DNA of 64,000 nt from an uncultured Enterorhabdus sp. (lineage in GTDB: Bacteria; Actinomycetota; Coriobacteriia; Coriobacteriales; Eggerthellaceae): positions 62,001 through 126,000 of the forward strand of contig CANSQM010000001.1 in assembly GCA_947649205.1 (NCBI GenBank), given 5' to 3'. Positions 7,780-21,093 of this stretch are shown here, in pieces (within the stretch, counting starts at the first letter, position 1; every line of letters starts with the position of its first letter). Below the pieces are notes generated by a model, which made no database searches, had not been told where the DNA came from, and saw nothing but the letters and a program-made list of their open reading frames with translations. The position numbers and the translations under genes are program-made.

Positions 7780-9384
7780 GTGGCTGAGACCGCAACCCCG
7801 AACCAGTTGGTTATCGTCGTCGATTTCGGCGCCCAGTACGGGCAGCTCATCGCCCGCCGGGTGCGCGATCTGCATGTGTATTCCGAGATCGTGCCCTGCG
7901 ACATCACGGCCGACGAGGTGCGCGCCCTGGCGCCGGCGGCCATCATTCTGTCCGGCGGTCCCGCGTCGGTGTACGCGGAAGATGCCCCCTCCATCGACCC
8001 CGAGATTCTGGCCCTTGGCATTCCCGTGCTCGGCTTCTGCTACGGTCAGCAGGCCATGGCTGTGGCTTTGGGCGGCGAAGTGGGCCACACCGAGAAGGGC
8101 GAGTACGGGCCGGCGCTCATCACGCGGGCGAGCGAGTCGGCGCTGTTCGAGGGCACGCCCGGCGAGCAGACCGTGTGGATGAGCCACCGCGACGCCGTGA
8201 GCCGCGTGCCCGAGGGCTTCACCGTCACGTCGCGCACCGAGGTGTGCCCCGTGGCGTCCATGGAGTACCCCGAGCGCAGCCTGTACGCCACGCAGTTCCA
8301 CCCGGAGGTGCGCCACACCGAGTTCGGCCAGACCATGTTGCGGAACTTCCTGTTCGGCGTATGCGCGCTTGAGCCGGATTGGACCATGGACTCCATCATC
8401 GAGGACTCCGTGGAGGCCATCCGTGCCGAGGTAGGGGAGGACCGCGTGATCCTGGGCCTTTCGGGCGGCGTGGACTCGTCGGTGGTGGCGGCCCTGTGCG
8501 CTCGCGCCATCGGCAAGCAGCTGACCTGCGTGTTCGTGAACCACGGGCTGCTGCGCAAGGGCGAGCCCGAGGAAGTGGAAGAGGTGTTCACGAAGCAGTT
8601 CGACGTGGACTTCATCCACGTGCACGCCGAGGAGCGCTACCTGGAGCTGCTGGCCGGCGTGACCGATCCGGAGGAGAAGCGCCGCATCATCGGCACCCAG
8701 TTCTGGAAGGAGTTCTTCGCTGTGGCGGAGGACCTGGCCCAGGACGGGCGTCCGGTGAAGTACCTGGCCCAGGGCACCATTTACCCGGATATCATCGAGA
8801 GCGGCGCCCGCAAGACCGGCGGGAAGGCGAGCACCATCAAGAGCCACCACAACCTTATCCCGTTCCCCGAGGGCGTGCATTTCGACCTGATCGAGCCCTT
8901 GGACCACTTCTTCAAGGACGAGGTGCGCGCGCTCGGCACGGCGCTGGGCCTGCCCGATTACATCGTGCATCGCCAGCCCTTCCCGGGCCCGGGCCTGGCC
9001 ATCCGTATCATCGGCGATGTGGATGCGGAGAAGCTGACGATTTTGAAGAACGCCGATGCCATCGTGCGCGAGGAGCTGGACGCTTACAACGAGCGCCTGT
9101 ACGCCGAGACGGGCGAGCGTAACAGCGAGCACGCCGTGTGGCAGTACTTCGCCGTGCTGCCCGACATCAAGAGCGTCGGCGTCATGGGCGACGAACGCAC
9201 CTACGCAAGACCGGTGATTCTGCGAGCCGTAGAGAGCAGCGATGCCATGACCGCCGACTGGGCGCGCCTCCCCTACGACGTCCTGGCCCGCATTTCGGGT
9301 CGCATCGTAGCCGAGGTTCCCGGCGTGAACCGAGTGGTCTACGATATCACCAGCAAGCCCCCCGCGACTATCGAGTGGGAATAG
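7780..9384 (+). CDS. guaA: GMP synthase (glutamine-hydrolysing)
   Basis: The 534-residue enzyme converts XMP to GMP with glutamine and ATP. The N-terminal class I glutamine amidotransferase domain has the nucleophile elbow GFCYGQQ (Cys87) and FHPEV; the ATP-pyrophosphatase domain has the PP-loop SGGVDSS (228-234); the C-terminal dimerisation domain ends in TIEWE. Length matches the family. The start is GTG at 7780 with AAGGAGG eight bases upstream. The conserved 3' end of guaA is a well-known integration site for genomic islands, and composition changes sharply right after this gene. Confidence 0.98.
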   Translation: MAETATPNQLVIVVDFGAQYGQLIARRVRDLHVYSEIVPCDITADEVRALAPAAIILSGGPASVYAEDAPSIDPEILALGIPVLGFCYGQQAMAVALGGEVGHTEKGEYGPALITRASESALFEGTPGEQTVWMSHRDAVSRVPEGFTVTSRTEVCPVASMEYPERSLYATQFHPEVRHTEFGQTMLRNFLFGVCALEPDWTMDSIIEDSVEAIRAEVGEDRVILGLSGGVDSSVVAALCARAIGKQLTCVFVNHGLLRKGEPEEVEEVFTKQFDVDFIHVHAEERYLELLAGVTDPEEKRRIIGTQFWKEFFAVAEDLAQDGRPVKYLAQGTIYPDIIESGARKTGGKASTIKSHHNLIPFPEGVHFDLIEPLDHFFKDEVRALGTALGLPDYIVHRQPFPGPGLAIRIIGDVDAEKLTILKNADAIVREELDAYNERLYAETGERNSEHAVWQYFAVLPDIKSVGVMGDERTYARPVILRAVESSDAMTADWARLPYDVLARISGRIVAEVPGVNRVVYDITSKPPATIEWE

Positions 9385-9437
9385 GCCTGGACGTATCGTT
9401 GTGAGAACGAGGGGTCAAGAAAGAAGATAATCAGTCT

Positions 9438-10871
9438 GTGGACGGGACTTTTCAAGATTTGCAACCCTATATTGAAAAGGTTGTAGATGTCGTTTTGCCA
9501 TTGTTGGGCGACGCTTGCAATGGGTTGGCATGGTTTTTCCAAACAGTGTTGTCGCAGGTGACCAATCGTGAGATCGCGACAGTAATTCTGCTCCTGGGCA
9601 TTCTATTGTTTGCGACCGTTAAGATAGGTGCTGTTAAAACTACAAGAGGTTTGTGGGATGTTATTGTTGCAGCGCTGTCGCCCAAGATACTTATTCCAGG
9701 TTTGCTGCTGGTTCTGTATTCGGTGATGATCTTCCTAGGTGCATATCGCATCGGAATTTGGTCATCAAAGATTTTATTAGACACCATATTGGAAATATCT
9801 TTCATTGGGCTGCCGTCTTTGGCGATAGCGGTGAAGGCGAATTCGGTTGTATCGATATATCGGCAGTTTGTCATACCCGAAATTGGATTTGGCGCAATTG
9901 TCGCTTTTTATATAGGGATAGAGAGTTTCTCTCTTCCTGTTGAAGTTGGGTTGCAATTTGTCATCTGCGCTTTCACCGTTCTCCAAGTTGTCGGCAAGTA
10001 CGAACCCGCAGGGGAGAATGTTGCAAAGTTCTCTAGCTGCCTTCTTACCGTTATCGGACTGGGAATTATAGTGGCGGCTTCATGGGGGATAGCGCATACT
10101 TGGAACGCGATAGACTGGGGTGTCGAAATCGAGGCTCTCGGCATGGCACTCTATTATCCGATCCTCATGGTGCCGGCGATCGTCGCGTTAGGATATTATG
10201 CTGTTTACGAAACATTGGGTATTCGCATAAAGATATGCTCAAAAGGAATGAGGTTTCTTACTAGGGCGTATCTTTACGGCCTACTGTTTCCCTCCCTTGT
10301 GGCCGTAAAACACTTCAATGGATCTGAGATAACGAATTACACAAAGTGCGGTAGCTGGAAAGAGCGGAACCAATATATAAAAAACTACAAAAGGATTCTC
10401 GCCGAAACTGCAGCGAAAGAGAATGCGAAGCTGAAGCGCATGGAGTCCGGTTTGGGCAAAAGGGGTTTTGATGAGGATGGAATTTGGCTCGACTGGGAGA
10501 ATCTTGAAGAGATAAAAACCAGTCTTCGAAGTGTTGCGAGTATTCAGGATCGAAGATGGAGGGAAGACCACGCCTACGCCGCAAATATGCAGGGGGCATT
10601 TGTGGACGTTTTTACTCCCAGAGGCTGCATTAGTGGATCTTACGTTTCAAGCGATGGGAGAGCGTATATTTGTTGGATGAGCAATGGGACGGGATTTACT
10701 TTTGGTGTAGGAGCTTGCGAAGGGTCTTCTCCGTCTCAAAGGTATGAGGGGCTAACGCCACCTGCGACTGACTCTGAGAGTGCATTGTTAGCGCAATTTG
10801 TCGACGAGGAGGACCAGATAGCACTTCCTCATTGGTTTATGGATTTTCGCGTCGATGATACTTACAAGTGA
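9438..10871 (+). CDS. Unknown polytopic membrane protein with cytoplasmic C-terminal domain
   Basis: I do not recognise this 477-residue protein. About seven hydrophobic segments lie between residues 45 and 285 (for example VILLLGILLFATVKIGAV and ILMVPAIVALGYYAVY). A soluble C-terminal half of about 190 residues begins with a charged, possibly coiled-coil stretch (KENAKLKRMES) and then a mixed region with GCISGSYVSSDGRAY and WMSNGTGFTFGVG. The start is GTG. It begins 53 bases after guaA, is far more AT-rich than guaA, and was probably acquired horizontally. A membrane effector in a defence island is possible but unsupported. Confidence 0.6.
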   Translation: MDGTFQDLQPYIEKVVDVVLPLLGDACNGLAWFFQTVLSQVTNREIATVILLLGILLFATVKIGAVKTTRGLWDVIVAALSPKILIPGLLLVLYSVMIFLGAYRIGIWSSKILLDTILEISFIGLPSLAIAVKANSVVSIYRQFVIPEIGFGAIVAFYIGIESFSLPVEVGLQFVICAFTVLQVVGKYEPAGENVAKFSSCLLTVIGLGIIVAASWGIAHTWNAIDWGVEIEALGMALYYPILMVPAIVALGYYAVYETLGIRIKICSKGMRFLTRAYLYGLLFPSLVAVKHFNGSEITNYTKCGSWKERNQYIKNYKRILAETAAKENAKLKRMESGLGKRGFDEDGIWLDWENLEEIKTSLRSVASIQDRRWREDHAYAANMQGAFVDVFTPRGCISGSYVSSDGRAYICWMSNGTGFTFGVGACEGSSPSQRYEGLTPPATDSESALLAQFVDEEDQIALPHWFMDFRVDDTYK

Positions 10872-11002
10872 TGAATAGGCATCGCACATTGCTCTCGCCT
10901 TTCATGCTGTAACGCTCAAAATCGTATATTTTTCCTCATGAGGTGAATGGCGAAAAGTTAGCGTGAGCAGCTGAGGGTTTGCCGTGTTTCAGTTTCTCGG
11001 GG

Positions 11003-11590
11003 TCATGTCAAATACTCTTTAGGGGTGAGCATTCTTGCTCGTGCCTCGGGCAGCCTCACCCCACACTCATCTGCGTATTGCAGGAGAGCCATACGAACGG
11101 TTCCGGCGATTGTTGCTTTATTGGGAGTGTACTGACCCCAGTGGGTGGTGGACCTTGATATGGCGGCTTTGAGAATTTCCTGAAACCTGTCCAGGTCTTG
11201 CAGGGGGCTCTGCTCTGCGATGTGGCTAAGCTCTTCGTCAACCGAGCGCTTATAAATGAATTCATATTCGCGCCAGCCCTCTTCTATAAAATACGTTTTA
11301 TAGAAAGTCGCCTTGTGCGCGATAAGCCAGTCCCACATAATGCGTGGATCGTCAACGTTAGGGGCTTCTTCATGGCATTTTCGGCATAGCAGGACGTAAT
11401 TGCTGGGAATATCTTGGCCTCCAAGAGAGCGAGCGACAATGTGGCATCGCGTCAGATCCTTAGGGGTCCCGCAGTTCCAGCAGTACTCCTCGGCTTCTGA
11501 CCAGTCGACGCTAAGATCGCACTCGTCAATTCGTGGAGCCCAATAGTCGACGATCTGGCTGATTGGAGTCTTGTTTTGATTCGATGACAT
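11003..11590 (-). CDS. HNH endonuclease-like protein (short paralogue)
   Basis: The 195-residue protein has a zinc-ribbon HNH core: CWNCG, TRCHIVARSLGG and LLCRKCHEEAPN (about residues 37-80). This gives two CxxC pairs around a His-containing HNH strand. The C-terminal part is not a standard HNH feature but is shared with the protein at 12679-14031, including the signature HWGQYTPNKATIAGTVRMAL (about 147-166). It would cut or nick DNA; the target is unknown. It lies 13 bases downstream of the 335-residue gene on the same strand, so the two form an operon. AT-rich. Confidence 0.75.
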   Translation of the reverse strand: MSSNQNKTPISQIVDYWAPRIDECDLSVDWSEAEEYCWNCGTPKDLTRCHIVARSLGGQDIPSNYVLLCRKCHEEAPNVDDPRIMWDWLIAHKATFYKTYFIEEGWREYEFIYKRSVDEELSHIAEQSPLQDLDRFQEILKAAISRSTTHWGQYTPNKATIAGTVRMALLQYADECGVRLPEARARMLTPKEYLT

Positions 11591-11603
11591 GATAGAAAGC
11601 CCC

Positions 11604-12611
11604 TTAGTTTGTGTGCAAACAGCTATCTGCGTATTTGACTATAGATTCATTGATAAATAGTAAGAAATTATTTTTCAAAGACAATTTCTCGAGAGTTTCA
11701 ATGAAAAGATTTTCTCCGCAATTGTCTCGCGCTATTGTTTTTAGAACACTCTTTGTTTCTTCCGGAAGATCCAGCTCAGCAACAAAATTTAAGATATCCT
11801 CTTCTTTAACGATGAGAAATGGGTTTTGATCGAAGCCTGGAATCACCTTTTCATCGATGACTTCAACGAATGTGTTTTCGAAAAGAACATCTTGAGAGCG
11901 AATCAGGGCATCCTCCAAGGTGTTTAACTCTTCGCTGCTTATCTGCCCATGTTCGATAAGTCGGCCATTTGAGTCAAAAGACATGAAGTCGAGCAGACCG
12001 TCCTGCCTTTCATCTTGAAAAGCAGTAAAGGTTTGCGTGCCTTCGCGTAGAGAAGAGACCGAGCTCAAATCTCCGTTTTCTCCAATGAAGAAATAGCTAC
12101 CGCTTTGAGACTCTTCGGAAGGGAATCCCTGAGTTTCCATAACATGCCAGCCGGATGGTCTTTTCTCGGCGCACTTGATCTTTCGATGCTTTATCCAGTT
12201 GATAGCTACCTTGGTGTCAATTGAAAACCGTTGAGCGAATTCTTCTATTGAAAGAAGGCGTGCGTTTATACATATAATTGGCTCATATGTTGACGACTCC
12301 GCTGATTCGATCTCGTCGCTTTCATCAAGGGAGATCTTTGTATACTCTACGGAGTTGAGATTGATATCAATATTCGTAATAACTATTTCGTAGGATGCAA
12401 AAGGTTTTTCCAAATATGCCAAGTCGCAGTTGCAGACTTTCTTCGTGAAGTGGTTGATCAGCTCGATTAGCGCTGGTCTATAGAAAATAGCATCCGAAGA
12501 GTGCTCTTCGTCATGCATGAGGCGAAGTGAGTAATCACTCAGTGCCTCTAGAACTTCTCTTTTTGATTTAATTGCCTTTCTTTGAAAGAGCTTTAATGTG
12601 TGTGCATCCAT
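11604..12611 (-). CDS. Unknown protein with excisionase/MerR-like helix-turn-helix
   Basis: I do not recognise this 335-residue protein as a family. A helix-turn-helix like those of excisionases is visible in the middle (SIEEFAQRFSIDTKVAINWI, followed by KHRKIKCAEKRPSGWHV, about 116-155). Acidic regions flank it: an N-terminal half of mixed strands, and a C-terminal half with a DEKVIPGFDQNPFLIVKEED segment. The ATG has AGAGG five bases upstream. It is the first gene of an operon with the short HNH protein and is divergent from the long HNH protein. It may be the DNA-recognition or control subunit of that locus; this is inference. Confidence 0.55.
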   Translation of the reverse strand: MDAHTLKLFQRKAIKSKREVLEALSDYSLRLMHDEEHSSDAIFYRPALIELINHFTKKVCNCDLAYLEKPFASYEIVITNIDINLNSVEYTKISLDESDEIESAESSTYEPIICINARLLSIEEFAQRFSIDTKVAINWIKHRKIKCAEKRPSGWHVMETQGFPSEESQSGSYFFIGENGDLSSVSSLREGTQTFTAFQDERQDGLLDFMSFDSNGRLIEHGQISSEELNTLEDALIRSQDVLFENTFVEVIDEKVIPGFDQNPFLIVKEEDILNFVAELDLPEETKSVLKTIARDNCGENLFIETLEKLSLKNNFLLFINESIVKYADSCLHTN

Positions 12612-12624
12612 TTAAACCTCTGTG

Positions 12625-12652
12625 TTGAGTAGTTGGTAAGTCAATATATCAT
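12625..12652 (+). promoter_or_regulatory. Candidate promoter in the 67-bp divergent HNH intergenic region
   Basis: TTGAGT (12625-12630), a 16-base spacer and TATCAT (12647-12652) form a plausible promoter for the rightward HNH gene. The whole divergent region is only 67 bases, so both transcripts must start within it or overlap. Confidence 0.35.
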
Positions 12653-12678
12653 GGCTTAATGAACGTGCAAATTAGTGG

Positions 12679-14031
12679 ATGGATTCGCCTCCATATGATA
12701 AATCGAGTAGAGAGGGGTACGATGTGAGCATGGTGCTGAATGGTCGAAGACTGATTTGCGGAATTAATCCTAAGCTTGCAAAAAAGATCTGCGAGATGTG
12801 TCGTGATTATCCACGATCTACGGAAGAAATAGCACGCATGCTATCAATTAGCGAGATTACTGCGGAAAGTTGGCTTGTTTCTCTTGCTGAGGCAGACTAC
12901 TTGAATGTAGAGATAGAAAGCGAAAGAATCTTTTGGCTGTGCACCCCAAAAGGATATACCTCGCTTGTAGCCGCTCGGTTCGGTAAGCCGTTGTCAGGAG
13001 AAGAGTTTGCTAATCTACTTTTTTCGATTATGCAGCGAGCGAGGGAATACAACGCAAATGAAACCTTTCCGCTTCGTATAGACAAGATCTATGCATTTGG
13101 TTCCGTATTCACTCAGCCGTGGCAAATCGAGGATCCCAATTTAGCTATAACTGTTAGCGAAAGACCTTGGGCTAGTAGGGATTCCAATTGGAGGTTGGAT
13201 TATTATGCTCAGCGATCTGCCAGTCAGCATCTGTCAATTGTCGAGCAGTTGTATTTTGCTGAGGAGGAGCTGGGCCGTTTTCTTAAAAGGAAAAAGGAGC
13301 ATTTTTCGATCTACCATCAGGATGCTTCGGAAGTATCTGATGAGAAAAGATTGCTATTTATCGGTGAACACATAGATCCTTCCGGTATCGATGGCGTTCT
13401 GATGACGATTTCAGAGATACGAGATTTGGGAGAAAAGATCACAAGACATAGAAGTGCGATTCCTAAAAGCAGACGGTCTAAAATAGCACGAGTTCGGAAT
13501 GAGGATATTGTAAATTACTGGAGAAATTCAGCCTGGTTTATTGAGTTGAACATTTTGCCTGAACATGCAGCGAACTGTTGCTGGCGATGTGGAAGCAGGC
13601 AAGATATTCAGCGCTGTCATATCGTTCCCGATGCTCTTGGCGGCGGATTTGAGGAGTCAAATCTTGTATTGCTGTGCGCACGTTGCCATGCGGAGGGCCC
13701 GAACCTGCAGGACAAGAACATCATGCTTGATTGGATTAAGTCGTATAGAAAAAAGTGGCCGGATGACTTCTGGATCAATGCGGCAATGAATGAATACGAA
13801 CGCATTTACAATAAAGATATTCGAGCTGAAGTCGAGGAAATACTTTGCAGAGAAGGGGCTTCACTAGAGCTCGATGCGGCGATTGCCGAGTTGGAGCTTC
13901 TTGCTAACGAGGCGGCGACTGCTGCAACATTTCACTTTGGCCAAACATGGCTAAACAATGCAAGTTTGGCAGGCTGCTTTCGAATAGCTCTTGAGGAGCT
14001 GCCAAATCAGCTTCGCAGATTGTGCGTATAG
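12679..14031 (+). CDS. HNH endonuclease with N-terminal winged-helix and degenerate nucleotidyltransferase-like region (long paralogue)
   Basis: The 450-residue protein appears to have three parts. Residues about 30-95 look like a winged helix (STEEIARMLSISEITAESWL). Residues about 125-160 resemble a minimal nucleotidyltransferase motif (KIYAFGSVF, then DPNLAI where active enzymes have two acidic residues), so it may be catalytically dead. Residues about 270-445 are an HNH domain (CCWRCG, QRCHIV, LLCARCH) with the C-terminal signature HFGQTWLNNASLAGCFRIAL. The HNH half is paralogous to 11003-11590. The first ATG lacks a ribosome-binding site; an in-frame GTG at 12724 has GAGAGGGG six bases upstream and may be the true start. 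AT-rich. Confidence 0.7.
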   Translation: MDSPPYDKSSREGYDVSMVLNGRRLICGINPKLAKKICEMCRDYPRSTEEIARMLSISEITAESWLVSLAEADYLNVEIESERIFWLCTPKGYTSLVAARFGKPLSGEEFANLLFSIMQRAREYNANETFPLRIDKIYAFGSVFTQPWQIEDPNLAITVSERPWASRDSNWRLDYYAQRSASQHLSIVEQLYFAEEELGRFLKRKKEHFSIYHQDASEVSDEKRLLFIGEHIDPSGIDGVLMTISEIRDLGEKITRHRSAIPKSRRSKIARVRNEDIVNYWRNSAWFIELNILPEHAANCCWRCGSRQDIQRCHIVPDALGGGFEESNLVLLCARCHAEGPNLQDKNIMLDWIKSYRKKWPDDFWINAAMNEYERIYNKDIRAEVEEILCREGASLELDAAIAELELLANEAATAATFHFGQTWLNNASLAGCFRIALEELPNQLRRLCV

Positions 14032-14467
14032 CAAAGGCGATTAAAGTGTTTCTGAAAATGTTGAAGAGATCAGGGCTTCTTAGAGGCTGACATTCACCCG
14101 TATTCCCAAATGTCGGTTTAGCTATTGGCAAATACGCAAGTGAACCCAACAGCCAAAGAGCCGCATGACCCAGTGGATCTTCAAATTGTCGCGCGACATC
14201 GTTCTGCGGGCTCCGCGCTTCTGCGGTCAACTCGTGAAAGGCTGTTCGCGTATAGGAAGATGTAGCCATGGGCTGCGCGTGTTGTTATCAACGAATGCTG
14301 GGACACGATGTGTTCGGAAGTCGCGGAAGGTCTGAACGTACCACGGTCGGCGTCCGATATGTCGCCCAACGGGCTAATTGGATCATCGATGAAATGTTGG
14401 CATACAATTAAATCAAAGACTAGCGCGTCCATGTCGTGCATGCCGCAACAATTTGATGAAATGAGAT
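14032..14467. other. Intergenic stretch without a recognisable gene
   Basis: Short open frames exist on both strands but none has a ribosome-binding site with recognisable protein similarity. A motif TACGCAAGTGAACCC near 14133 resembles the 18-nt repeat found at 52276 and 58217. This marks the boundary between the AT-rich HNH locus and the GC-rich MsrA-like module. Confidence 0.5.
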
Positions 14468-14938
14468 CTAATCCACTTCCAGGAGGTACTTAGTCATGAG
14501 CGCCCTGGGGATGTGGCAGTAGTCGTTGGGGAACTTGTCCAGGTGGTCTGGGTGCTTCTCGGCACTCGGGATGTAGCGGACAAGCCGCAGCACCTTGACG
14601 CGGATCCTGTTGCGGTTGGGCATCGCCCGGATGTAGGCCTCCGCCTCTCGCAGGCGGGGGGGGGGATTCTCGCTGTAGACGCCAGTGCGATACTTCTCGC
14701 CAGTGTCAGCGCCCTGTCTGTTTACGCTTTCGGGGTCGGTGATCTCGAAGAAGTAGCCCATCAGCTCGGTCACGGTCACGCGGCGCTCGTCGAACGTCGT
14801 CTTGACGCACTTGGCGTCCTCGAGGTTCTCGCCGGCCTCGCTCACTCGTCCGGCTTCGGTGGTGATGAGACCGAGCATCATCTTGACGAACGCTTGCGCG
14901 TCCCACGGGCACCTGCCGGCAAAGTAAATCGTCTGCAT
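14468..14938 (-). CDS. MsrA-like protein with altered active-site loop
   Basis: This 156-residue protein is homologous to peptide-methionine (S)-S-oxide reductase MsrA, which repairs oxidised methionine. Matching segments are TIYFAGRCPWDAQAF (family AGGCFWGVEAF), YFFEITDPESVNRQG, TGEKYRTGVY and DYCHIP. The catalytic Cys is retained (Cys9), but the GCFWG loop reads RCPWD. The region between the Arg-rich middle and YCHIP is also unusual, so it may act on another substrate or be inactive. The start at 14938 is set by AGGAGG seven bases upstream. A decayed paralogue lies at 17040-17355. Confidence 0.75.
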   Translation of the reverse strand: MQTIYFAGRCPWDAQAFVKMMLGLITTEAGRVSEAGENLEDAKCVKTTFDERRVTVTELMGYFFEITDPESVNRQGADTGEKYRTGVYSENPPPRLREAEAYIRAMPNRNRIRVKVLRLVRYIPSAEKHPDHLDKFPNDYCHIPRALMTKYLLEVD

Positions 14939-15050
14939 GTGCTGTCCTCCTGAAATGCACGAGCGCATCAGCTTGCTAACGACAGGAATGCGTCGTTAGC
15001 TCCACCGCTCGCTCTCTAACGACTAGCTATCGCCGTAAAGTATCGTTAGA
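14939..15050 (-). promoter_or_regulatory. Paired inverted repeats upstream of the MsrA-like gene
   Basis: Two related inverted repeats stand in the upstream region: GCTAACGAC-N8-GTCGTTAGC (14975-15000, 9-bp arms) and TCTAACGA-N20-TCGTTAGA (15015-15050, 8-bp arms). They share the core CTAACGA. They look like operators for a dimeric regulator; the TetR protein encoded at 16393 is the nearest candidate, though its own upstream palindromes differ. The rest of 14939-15246 holds no gene. Confidence 0.55.
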
Positions 15051-16392: not shown

Positions 16393-17097
16393 ATGCGCGA
16401 TTATGGGAAGATGACGCCGCTGCAGGCGGCCAGCTGCGTGCGGAAGGGCCGTCGCGATCTGAGGGAATCGCGGCGCCTGACTGACACGCCGGGCGTGATT
16501 GTGGCCACGGCGCGCAAGCTCTTCGAGACGCGAGGGGTGCGGGCGACCTCCATTGCGGCCATCGCGCGGGAGGCGAACGTCACTCGCGAGCTCGTCTACT
16601 ACCACTTCGCGAATCGCAACGGCCTCATTGAGGCGGTCATCGACGACTACGTGGAAGACCTCGTGGAAAGTGTGATCGTGTGGAACGAGGCGCGGATTTT
16701 CGGCGACACGCCCGGGTCGCTGAGAAAGTGCATCCAGACGTTCCGATACTCGCTCTACGACGGAGCGGGCCGTCCGCGCCCGATGATAGTCGTGTTGGAG
16801 GAGCTGGGCGTGCGGGATGCCTTCGACGTGCGCGCCACACGCGAGACAGCGGACTGCTTGGCGAATCACATCGCGAAGGAGTACGCGGCCTACCACCGAA
16901 TCGAGATCGAGCTGGTGCACGAGATGTTCTGCGTTGCGATATTCGGCCTAGTAGGTCTCGTGAAGATGAACCCTCAGATAGAAGACAACGTACTCATGAA
17001 GGTGATCGAGCAGACCCTGCGCCTCGACATGGCTCCGATTGAGACGGGAAGGGGTGAGCTACCGCTTCTGGAAGGTGCTTTCTCGCGGGCTTGCTGA
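16393..17097 (+). CDS. TetR/AcrR-family transcriptional regulator
   Basis: This 234-residue protein has an N-terminal TetR DNA-binding domain (ARKLFETRGVRATSIAAIAR then ELVYYHFANRNGLIEAVID, about 38-85) and an all-alpha C-terminal ligand-binding domain. A 35-residue basic extension precedes the helix-turn-helix. It is divergent from the DUF5692 gene, and palindromes lie between them. The ligand is unknown. The last 15-20 codons overlap the antisense remnant of an MsrA-like gene, so the natural C-terminus may have been altered. Confidence 0.9.
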   Translation: MRDYGKMTPLQAASCVRKGRRDLRESRRLTDTPGVIVATARKLFETRGVRATSIAAIAREANVTRELVYYHFANRNGLIEAVIDDYVEDLVESVIVWNEARIFGDTPGSLRKCIQTFRYSLYDGAGRPRPMIVVLEELGVRDAFDVRATRETADCLANHIAKEYAAYHRIEIELVHEMFCVAIFGLVGLVKMNPQIEDNVLMKVIEQTLRLDMAPIETGRGELPLLEGAFSRAC

Positions 17098-17355
17098 GAA
17101 TGTGGGAGTAGTTACCCTGGTCTGCACACGCTGCAGGTCCGATGATCTTGAAGAAGTAGCTTATAAGCTCGGTCCGGAGTTCACGGCTCTCGTTGAACTT
17201 TGTCTTCGTGCGCTCGGTATATTCGTCGCGTTGCTCCTCGAGGCTGAGGGTGGCCCCATTCGCTCCTCCCGTCTCGGTAGCGATGATGCCGACCAGCGTC
17301 TTGCGAACTCCTGCACGCCCCGCAGGTACCCGCCGGCAAAGTAAATTGCCTGCAT
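17040..17355 (-). pseudogene. Decayed MsrA-like gene
   Basis: A second MsrA-like gene starts at the ATG at 17355 with a CCTCCT-complement ribosome-binding site, like its paralogue at 14468. It reads MQAIYFAGGYLRGVQEF, then continues one base out of frame with LVGIIATETGG and ELISYFFKIIGP. The catalytic Cys of AGGCFWG is Tyr here and the Trp is Arg, so it is dead even apart from the frameshift near 17300. It overlaps the end of the TetR gene in antisense. Confidence 0.65.
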
Positions 17356-18210
17356 GCGTCGTCCTCCTGAAGCGATCAAGTGAGTCGGTTGTCCACTCGG
17401 TTTTGTTGTATGCGCTGCGCACAGCTCAGAAGGTTTTACTATCGGCAAATGGCAGGTTGCGGGATGCGGCCCTGTCGCACCATTTGCATTGGTCGAACGG
17501 CCACCTCTCTGTACCCCTTCAGTTCGTGAAGAAGAAGGCAGCAAGTTCAGGTCTTATGGCGAGACAATATCGAAAATGGTATCGTTCCGTTACGGCCTTG
17601 AACTCGGACGAGCGGGCGCGGGTCATCGGCGCTGGCAACAGGCTGCGCGTGAGTCGCGGAGCGCTCGCAGCGGAATGGCATCGAGTGGCGGTAGCGACGC
17701 TTGTTACACATGTGCGTCAGCTGCGGAGGCTGGTGCAGCCGTCCCCGGGTGCCGGGTCGACCTCGCCCCTCCCCCGGACGCCCGCATGTGGGTGTGGCTG
17801 TACTTGACCTCGTCGGCAACACTGAACTGGCGTCTTCCCATGGCCCGGCTCTTATCGAGCTCCCGTCGGGCCCCTGTCTTCTCTCAGGCGTCGGAGTCTC
17901 CTTCCGCTCGCGCGACGCCCCAATCGGCGTCTCTGCCAGGAGAAACGCTTCGAACTCAGTCGCACGTGTAAAGCCGGGTCTTAAGAAAAGCAAATGTACG
18001 GATCGGCTTGCGAATCAACTTCTACGCTCTGATACATGATAGAGGCAAATTTAGTTGGTGAAAGGCTTGATTGGGCATAACCACTACGTTATTCTGATAT
18101 TTAAATGATGATGTAGTATTGAATACTTTTCCGATGAATTGTTTGAACCAAGCTGCTTGGCTTCATGGTTTAGCATGCAAGATGATAGAGCGGGACTTGA
18201 TTGAGGAATC
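17356..18210. other. 855-base stretch without a confident gene
   Basis: The left part (to about 17,990) is GC-rich. It has open frames on both strands of up to about 200 codons but none with recognisable similarity or a convincing start, so I read it as decayed or non-coding sequence. The right part is AT-rich and forms the upstream region of the McrB-like gene. It holds a possible promoter (TTGATT 18067-18072, 17 bases, TATTCT 18090-18095) and a palindrome AGTATT-G-AATACT (18115-18127) that could be an operator. Confidence 0.4.
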
Positions 18211-19745
18211 ATGATGAAAGCTACGTTAAGCGTTCCCACCGTCGAAGTTGCTATAAAGAGGCTTCAGGAATCAAAAGCGCATGAACAATCGGTGTTTTAT
18301 CTATCGCTTCTTAAGCTGTCGACTGAGCACGACGATTTAAGTGAGTGTTTGGCCTCAGCGTATCAACAAATTATATCGAAATGGCTCGATGTTCCGGGCG
18401 GTTCTTCGCCTTACTATCGTCCGTTTGCGTCGAGAGGCGAGAACTATTGGATGAACCCCAATTTAGCTGGCAGTTTTGCACCCAGCTCTTTGCGTGACGA
18501 AAAAAGGTGCTGTTTTACACATCTGAAGGGAAGCTGCGTTTGCCGTCAGTCACCGAGATTTCTTCTAAGTTGATTGGCGGCCACCTTATCCCAGCATGGG
18601 CTTTGGCTGCTTTTCTTTTTCGTAATTGCTTGCTTGTTTCTCCGTCGGAGTATATTACAGATAGGGAATTAGTAGAATTACTCAGTCGCTATTTCGCGCT
18701 TGACGACTTGGAGTTTTACTCGAGTATTTTTGACTTCTCGACTCCTGGAGAAAAATGGCCACTTGATCGCGTGGACGATCTTGATGAGGGCAGTACTGAT
18801 CAGGTCGAAGTTCTAGATGTCGTGTCTTACGACTACCGACGGCTAACTGCGGTGCAGTTAGGCTTAGAGAGAATCGAGGGTGGCTTAGGCGTTCCGTCAG
18901 ACAGTTCCGAAGCCATTTTGCCAGAAGCTACCAAGAATGCAGATCTTGACGAAAACATCAAGGAGATACTGCAAGTATTAGAAGATTACTTAGGCGTTAT
19001 TTTGTCTGGTGCCCCCGGAACGTCGAAATCCTACTATGCTCGATTGGTGGCCGAATTTATTGCCGATGGCGATGATGGCCGAATGGCATTTGTGCAGTTC
19101 CACGCTTCATACCAATTCGAAGATTTCATGGAGGGGTACAGGCCTGACACGACGACGGGTGGCTTCGCGAAGGCGGACGGAATATTTCTTCAGCTATGCA
19201 AGAAGGCGCTGTCTGACAAAGCACATTCATATTGCATTGTCATAGATGAGCTTAGTCGAGGAGACTCTCAGCGCATATTTGGTGAGGCCCTTACGTATAT
19301 AGAGAGAAGTAAGAGGGGGCTACCCTTTTTACTTCCAAGTGGCGAAGAGGTTGTTATACCTGAAAACGTCTATATTGTTGCTACGATGAATCCCGTGGAT
19401 AGAGGTGCAGATGAAGTTGATTTAGCGTTTGGGCGCCGATTCGGCATCATTGAAATGAATCCTCGTGCAGAGCTTCTCAGAGGGCGTTTAATTGCATCCG
19501 GGATGGATGATGCTGTGGCTGGGAAAATTGTGGAGTGGTTCAATCGTTGCAATGCGGCATGTTCTAGTAGATCTCTTCCCGAGTTGGGCCACGCATTCTT
19601 TTGGTCAGTGAAAGATTATTCGACATTGAGCAGAGTGTGGCTGTACCAGGTGAGGCCGCATTTAAAGAAGGTTTTTCGCTTCGATGCGATTGAATGCGAT
19701 AAACTTATGAAGAATTTTGAAGAGCTGCTGGATTCCCTTCAATAA
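18211..19745 (+). CDS. McrB-like AAA+ NTPase subunit of a restriction system, with internal frameshift
   Basis: The gene reads in one frame from 18211 to about 18500 and in the minus-one frame from there to 19745; one extra A in the A6 run at about 18498-18503 would fuse them into about 511 residues. The C-terminal AAA+ domain has Walker A GAPGTSKS (about 19008-19031), Walker B with IVIDELSRGDSQRIFGEAL, and ATMNPVDRGADEVDLAFGRR, all McrB-like. The N-terminal part, probably for target recognition, is unrecognised. It would power DNA translocation for the McrC nuclease encoded 7 bases downstream. The frameshift may be a real mutation, slippage at A6, or a sequencing error. AT-rich. Confidence 0.82.
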
Positions 19746-19752
19746 ATCAATT

Positions 19753-21093
19753 ATGCCATTGTTTAACGTTTCAGAATATGACCAAATATCTATACAAGAA
19801 ATAGAAGACTATCTGTCGGAAGAAAAAGGTTATCCGTATCGACTTTCGATCTATCCAGATGTAATTGCAAGCGGTCTCATTCAGATTCAATGTCGTCCCA
19901 AAAAAGATAGTCAGGATGGTCTTGTCAATTTTCTGCGGCCATCAAAGCACATCGGTCTTGTTCCTCTTGCTCCGGAAGTGTCTTTATGGGTGAACCCGAA
20001 AGTACCGATTGCTAACATAGATCAAATGGCCAAGCGCTACGGAGGCATTGTTTCTAAAGATATTAATGAGCTACGCAGCTATGTCTCGACCGACGATACC
20101 GCCATGGAGCTGAGGAAACAGTTTGCTTTGTCGCTTGTCCGTTTGGCTGACTCGATAGTCGGAGTTGGGTTACTCCATGAGTACGTTAGAGAAGAAAGTA
20201 GCAATGGTTCTATTGCAGGGAACATTGATTTTTCTCAAACGATGAAGCGCTATATTTCGAGAGGAATTGGCTATCAAGTAGTAAGTAATTCATTTAAAAA
20301 GAGTATAGATATTAATATAAATAGACTGATTAGGACTGCACTTTTTCAAATTGCGGAAAATAGTCGCTATGAGTCTGGACTTCGCGCAAAAGCAGATCGG
20401 ATCTCTCGTTGCATGTCTGATGTCGCTGTTATTAGTTCTGTCCACCAACTTGCTATTGCGATGCGGGAGATTCCGCTTCCGTCGAGTCGAGATGATTATG
20501 CGCAGGCTATTCCTCTCTCTAAGGTGTTGCTGGTTGATGACGGCATTGATCTGCTGTCAAGAGATGGGGCCTTGCTGATGGAGCCACTATTTGTAGATAT
20601 GAGCGAAGTATTTGAGAGATATATTTTGCGAATTCTGCAAGATTCCCTTGTGGGGTTTCGCGTTGTATCGGGAAATGATGCAGTAAATTCTGTCCCGTTG
20701 TTTGAGGATAGATACAACGGTCTTCTTGAAAATGGCTATGAGGTCGCCCGCAATGCTTTTGGTACCAATAAAAAGCACTCTGCGTGTCCTGACATTCTGA
20801 TTTTTCGAAATGCGACGCTTAAGTTGGTCGCGGATGTAAAATATAAGCCTTTGCAAAATTCAATAGCCGCCAAGAGAGAAGATGTCGAGCAAGTTGTTAC
20901 CTATGCCGAGCGTTTCGGCAAGAAGATCGCCCTTTCGATACATCCTTGCTTAACAAGCCAAGAAGCTGGCTTGTATTATTCTGGAAATGTTGGCGAAATA
21001 TCAGTTTTATGCTACCAGATCAACTTAGGATCAGAAAACTTATCTATCGAAGAAGAAAAGATTGCTAGCGCCATTCGCTCACTGATTATATAG
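19753..21093 (+). CDS. McrC-like nuclease subunit
   Basis: This 446-residue protein (from the ATG at 19753) matches the McrC family. It has an N-terminal region that would contact the McrB-like hexamer, followed by a PD-(D/E)xK nuclease domain with PDILIF and LVADVKYKP, giving the acidic residues and catalytic Lys, then a QVVTYAERFG helix. It would cleave DNA once loaded by the McrB-like motor. It overlaps the convergent methyltransferase gene by 15 bases at its end, which ties the three genes into one locus. Confidence 0.85.
   Translation: MPLFNVSEYDQISIQEIEDYLSEEKGYPYRLSIYPDVIASGLIQIQCRPKKDSQDGLVNFLRPSKHIGLVPLAPEVSLWVNPKVPIANIDQMAKRYGGIVSKDINELRSYVSTDDTAMELRKQFALSLVRLADSIVGVGLLHEYVREESSNGSIAGNIDFSQTMKRYISRGIGYQVVSNSFKKSIDININRLIRTALFQIAENSRYESGLRAKADRISRCMSDVAVISSVHQLAIAMREIPLPSSRDDYAQAIPLSKVLLVDDGIDLLSRDGALLMEPLFVDMSEVFERYILRILQDSLVGFRVVSGNDAVNSVPLFEDRYNGLLENGYEVARNAFGTNKKHSACPDILIFRNATLKLVADVKYKPLQNSIAAKREDVEQVVTYAERFGKKIALSIHPCLTSQEAGLYYSGNVGEISVLCYQINLGSENLSIEEEKIASAIRSLII

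Follow-up and report, generated by a model that had tools for sequence, protein, structure and literature searches.

BrxR/CapW, CapS and RptR are helix-turn-helix (HTH) regulators that control adjacent defence genes (PMC9122601, PMC9122588, PMC13373217, PMC12255303). Fusions of a winged helix with an HNH nuclease that read N6-methyladenine (6mA) are also known (PMC11037411), and nucleotidyltransferase-fold proteins are found in toxin-antitoxin systems such as AbiE (PMC3985639). The locus discussed here combines elements of this kind. It lies in a stretch of 64 kb (the window) from an uncultured Enterorhabdus sp., which represents genome G000 in the comparisons below, and comprises three open reading frames (ORFs). 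These are named short (195-aa HNH protein, 11003..11590, minus strand), mid (335-aa HTH protein, 11604..12611, minus strand) and long (HNH protein with a 450-aa ORF, 12679..14031 from its ATG, plus strand). The original prediction was correct about the presence, positions and strands of these ORFs and joined all three in one candidate DNA-targeting system. The comparison of genomes supports, at the sequence level, a two-gene divergent module consisting of mid and long, and this pair seems to be a defence module that has not been described before.

The recurrence of the pair carries this finding. The family and the order were searched (397 Coriobacteriales genomes), and full-length mid was found only in G000, G037, G038 and G128, exactly the same four genomes in which the N-terminal domain of long is fused to HNH. 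These genomes belong to four genera, and mid and long are divergent in all of them, 52–112 bp apart when counted from the conserved start. Start conservation among the relatives points to GTG 12724, which suggests that the gene for long spans 12724..14031 and that the intergenic region, a putative shared promoter region, covers 112 bp (12612..12723, no strand). The predicted divergence is real, but the gap of 67 bp given for it does not hold if long starts at this GTG. G000 and G037 group together with 65% identity in mid and in long; G038 and G128 do so with 54% identity in mid and a support of 86/68 in the HNH tree. Because the identities pair the genomes identically in both genes, mid and long have been inherited together as a unit. 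The ratio of nonsynonymous to synonymous substitution rates (dN/dS) was not used as evidence, since synonymous sites are saturated in most pairs. In a wider sample of 396 Actinobacteria genomes, G000 and G038 were the only ones in which the N-terminal domain of long was joined to HNH, and a scan of the viral sequences with this N-terminus gave no matches. G392, from another family, has only the winged helix-turn-helix (wHTH)-nucleotidyltransferase half, near a contig end. Co-occurrence in other genomes thus holds for mid and long (four of four) and fails for short, which was not found with either of them outside the window.

Long can be read from its sequence as a winged helix, a nucleotidyltransferase-like domain and a zinc HNH domain with intact residues. 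The predicted structure is of low confidence (pLDDT 68). The winged helix, at about residues 30–90, had been proposed earlier and is supported by a fold search, in which it matches HlyU, CzrA and MarR-type structures with a probability of 1.0; with long and mid as queries, the PDB fold searches matched only this wHTH and a BldC-like HTH. The part of long after the winged helix can be aligned to standalone wHTH-nucleotidyltransferase proteins, which are encoded on plasmids of Arthrobacter, Curtobacterium and Methylocapsa and in the genomes G392, G567 and G660. The signature hG[GS]...DxD is intact in all seven standalone relatives, where the acidic residues read DLD, DVD or DID. In the window, the motif (FGS-x10-PN region, 13090..13155, plus strand) reads FGS...DPN, with the second Asp replaced by Asn, and the hG[GS]...DxD pattern of an active pol-beta-type nucleotidyltransferase is absent from long. 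G037 has FGA...DPN, DPD is found in G038 and G128, and the residues following the motif glycine vary in the HNH-fused proteins. As judged from this alignment, the acidic site is altered in the HNH-fused proteins, as had been suspected, and most so in the branch of the window itself (G000 and G037). The nucleotidyltransferase fold apparently loses its active site once it is fused to a nuclease. As a separate observation, an intact wHTH-nucleotidyltransferase gene at locus L099 (3334-5898) overlaps the end of an integrase-like gene and has an HTH gene upstream; this may point to a role of the standalone family in mobile elements.

The C-terminal part of long consists of the HNH core and a helical tail. 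The zinc core CxxC...RCHIVP...SNLVLLC...CH (13579..13689, plus strand) passes the Pfam HNH model PF01844 with 25.3 bits (cutoff 21.4, E=1.7e-5), and short reaches 30.8 bits. The catalytic residues His314, Asn328 and His337 and the zinc cysteines are invariant in the alignment of 11 relatives; the loss of these residues, which would have refuted the original proposal, was not seen. The zinc-ribbon core is shared by short and long, as originally proposed (35% identity across 162 residues, E=8e-32), and the tail HxGQ...NxAxxAG...RxAL is common to most of the aligned set, with the phage rows varying at single positions. PADLOC gave no convincing match to a named system: the best hit of long was DpdF (E=3.7e-4), to the HNH core only, and mid had none.

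One alternative is that long works by itself as a modification-dependent (type IV-like) restriction enzyme, in which the winged helix or the N-terminal half would read modified DNA, HNH would cut nearby, and mid would only adjust expression. The closest solved HNHs to the family profile are McrA of E. coli, the best match, and IscB, a likeness that does not go beyond the general HNH core. A winged helix and HNH are found in one chain, as in the type IV 6mA-dependent enzymes, no conserved methyltransferase was seen beside the pair, and McrB/McrC-like genes are near it in G000 and G037. However, the wHTH of long resembles MarR/ArsR/HlyU regulators, and the published wH-HNH enzymes, at 224–283 aa, have no room for an additional nucleotidyltransferase-like domain. 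The wHTH-nucleotidyltransferase unit also occurs on plasmids without a nuclease, and for this reason it is not a dedicated reader of modified bases. A restriction enzyme of this type is a fairly unlikely explanation.

The partner of long, mid, is best understood through its relatives. Its AlphaFold model is fair (pLDDT 80) and shows a helical N-terminus and a central HTH at about residues 119-151 with a beta region on either side; a helical extension forms the C-terminus. By itself, the HTH gives a weak match (HTH_17, E=0.058); through a homologue the match reaches E=7e-10, and by fold it corresponds to BldC with a Foldseek probability of 1.0, which confirms the excisionase/MerR-like HTH claimed for this protein. 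Outside the HTH, the structure search found mostly no known fold, the profiles likewise match the HTH only, and neither a WYL nor a STAS domain was detected. No matches to mid were found in viral, plasmid and phage sequences. Relatives in other contexts are shorter (255-272 aa), apart from a longer one. In G071, the relative is next to a CBASS cyclase and a SAVED-HNH effector; in G219 and G295, it lies opposite a SAVED-HNH gene and a PDC-S26 nuclease candidate, respectively. Fic- and AbiEi-like genes are close to the relative in G001, and an ATPase gene adjoins that of G036. In the Clostridia, G801 has the sole full-domain relative among 177 genomes of the class, and it is alone there. The HTH of one distant relative matches the MADS Mad1 profile. 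By sequence comparison, mid is thus a member of a broader HTH family that often occurs in defence neighbourhoods and has no exclusive tie to HNH nucleases. Two further arrangements were observed in this family. A recurring two-gene unit, in which a 272-aa relative is followed by a protein of ~155 aa with a hydrophobic C-terminal stretch, adjoins CBASS and PDC-S26 genes (L058 7873-9179, L059 1613-2908, L060 385-1676). At L022 (7299-8930), a 543-aa protein is mid-like over its first ~260 residues and has a long extra C-terminal part, with Fic- and AbiEi-like genes nearby.

The same data bear on a toxin-antitoxin module, in which long would be the toxic nuclease and mid its antitoxin; mid would bind long directly and also exert autoregulation at the divergent promoters. 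The full-length proteins occur together in all four cases, one partner has an HTH, the location is mobile and the nuclease residues are intact. The nucleotidyltransferase fold, as in AbiE, is also in its favour. The divergent, non-operonic layout is unusual for such modules, however, and relatives of mid exist without any nuclease partner. On balance, this explanation is unlikely.

Short does not share the history of the pair. In the HNH tree, the HNH domains of the fused proteins make up a fully supported branch of their own, apart from the short ones, and local duplication as the origin of the two HNH genes is not favoured. Short relatives are solitary and were found in Gordonibacter, where one is flanked by two stretches resembling peptide deformylase genes, in Clostridia and Saccharibacteria, on an Enterococcus hirae plasmid and on two viral contigs. 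Mid was not found in six records with short relatives, a check that had no positive control. The base composition also differs, with 51% GC in short and 41% in mid. The three-gene system was rejected, because outside the window short did not turn up together with either member of the pair, and with it the idea of two HNH partners; no support was obtained for one HNH partner that nicks DNA under the control of the other subunits. The operon proposed for short and mid amounts to adjacency (13 bp), an arrangement that is not kept elsewhere. Judged by sequence, short is probably an independent insertion downstream of mid, a passenger outside the pair.

The 3' end of guaA is a known attachment site with the core GAGTGGGA (PMC7775301), and this core is present in guaA of the window. 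Three of the four pairs (G000, G038 and G128) are located just downstream of guaA, which is directly upstream of the pair in G000 and G128 and adjoins the far end of mid in G038; the pair of G037 is beside McrBC-like genes and is not among these cases. The DNA after guaA varies between the relatives examined; its cargo includes tyrosine integrases, AbiE and GmrSD-type restriction, among others, and some related genera have similar integrase elements there. This variable cargo supports the predicted location at an integration hot spot, and the predicted AT-richness was confirmed, the three-gene segment having 41-51% GC against 66% for guaA. The cargo segment of the window (9383..14475, no strand), from the guaA 3' end to msrA, could be bounded approximately because a genome of the same genus, G003, has a different cargo of ~1.5 kb between guaA and msrA. 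No integrase was found among the ORFs of 9385-14475, and no second copy of the guaA end, as a flanking direct repeat, was found within 9385-30000 at 14 of 16 matches. Consequently, the segment is not a self-mobile element as it stands.

These findings also concern the possibility that the HNH proteins serve the mobile DNA itself, as homing endonuclease-like or element-maintenance functions, and not defence. The position at guaA, the solitary short relatives, which are spread over viral contigs, a plasmid and various chromosomes, and the wHTH-nucleotidyltransferase relative that overlaps an integrase-like gene in one distant genome agree with such a role. The segment has no integrase or attachment-site repeat, however; an intron or intein context was not seen, and long was never found alone, unlike a homing gene. 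The chance of this role seems slim.

Several other features of the window were observed around the pair. An AT-rich, membrane-like protein of 477 aa without a Pfam family (9438-10871) was rejected as a partner; its sole relative, in G048 (57% identity), has no pair nearby. Two msrA-like stretches are present (14468-14968 and 16994-17422), and since 17127-17372 matches the same part of the G003 msrA, one of them is probably a duplicated or decayed copy. An AT-rich McrB-like GTPase gene and a 458-aa gene in the McrC position (18507-21093) are followed by a DNA methyltransferase-like gene and a PLD/helicase-like protein, up to 25262, forming a second defence-like island. The guaA 3' end appears to be a rich place to seek more defence genes in Eggerthellaceae.

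Taken together, mid and long could be a mobile module of two genes, of the kind seen in defence islands, in which an HNH nuclease is held by a divergent regulator, and we give this reading about an even chance. Recurrent divergence, co-inheritance, a foreign-DNA hot spot or restriction-gene neighbours, and intact HNH residues support it, as do the distant mid relatives divergent from or beside CBASS (cyclase and SAVED-HNH) and PDC-S26 candidates. The divergent HNH/HTH pair at guaA is consistent with a defence or mobile-element function, as first proposed; a three-component system is not supported. The divergent layout may indicate regulated expression of a dangerous nuclease. Mid would sit on the shared promoter region and keep long low; upon infection or disturbance of the DNA, it would release, long would accumulate, and its HNH domain would cut DNA. 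Long might be guided to DNA by its winged helix. Its degenerate nucleotidyltransferase-like domain may be a switch that binds a ligand or partner and not an enzyme. A more specific version is decidedly unlikely, namely a new immune module in which this dead domain would detect a nucleotide or nucleic-acid ligand linked to infection and activate the fused HNH DNase, with the divergent HTH protein as a sensor of damage that sets the level of expression.

Other observations weigh against the regulated-nuclease reading. Just four pairs are known, and in one of them (G128) a frameshift close to the end of the HNH core interrupts long. In other places, relatives of mid also occur on their own, and the regulatory role predicted for mid is drawn only from its HTH and the layout. 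A shared operator was not demonstrated: the search of the intergenic regions gave no consistent inverted repeat, and of three motif lengths only the 14-mer exceeded all shuffles. Opposing promoter-like sites overlap (12625-12652, plus; 12671-12643, minus), no more than expected by chance from shuffles. If the reading is true, a compact regulated nuclease would be added to the defence repertoire of the little-studied gut Eggerthellaceae.

The position of the pair among described systems can be summarized as follows. SruGXI and HhiV4I (PMC11037411) resemble long in having a winged helix and HNH in a single protein and in requiring no neighbouring methyltransferase, but long differs in its N-terminal MarR/ArsR-like wHTH, the intervening nucleotidyltransferase-like domain and the conserved divergent HTH partner. 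E. coli McrA (PDB 6ghc) shares the HNH core and matches the family profile with E=1.5e-4, but only over ~44 profile positions; the N-terminal half of long and the C-terminal helical part with HxGQ...NxAxxAG are outside the match. The wHTH-nucleotidyltransferase proteins of Arthrobacter and other plasmids are homologous to the N-terminal half of long, but they keep GS...DxD and do not have an HNH domain. AbiE (AbiEi/AbiEii) occupies this guaA site in a related genome and uses a nucleotidyltransferase fold, but it is operonic, without HNH, and has no profile match to long or mid. BrxR/CapW, CapS and RptR, like mid, are HTH proteins encoded beside nuclease-type defence genes in islands, whereas the HTH of mid is of the excisionase/BldC kind and central in an otherwise unmatched protein. 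By analogy, these regulators provide a precedent for mid and not a family to which it belongs.
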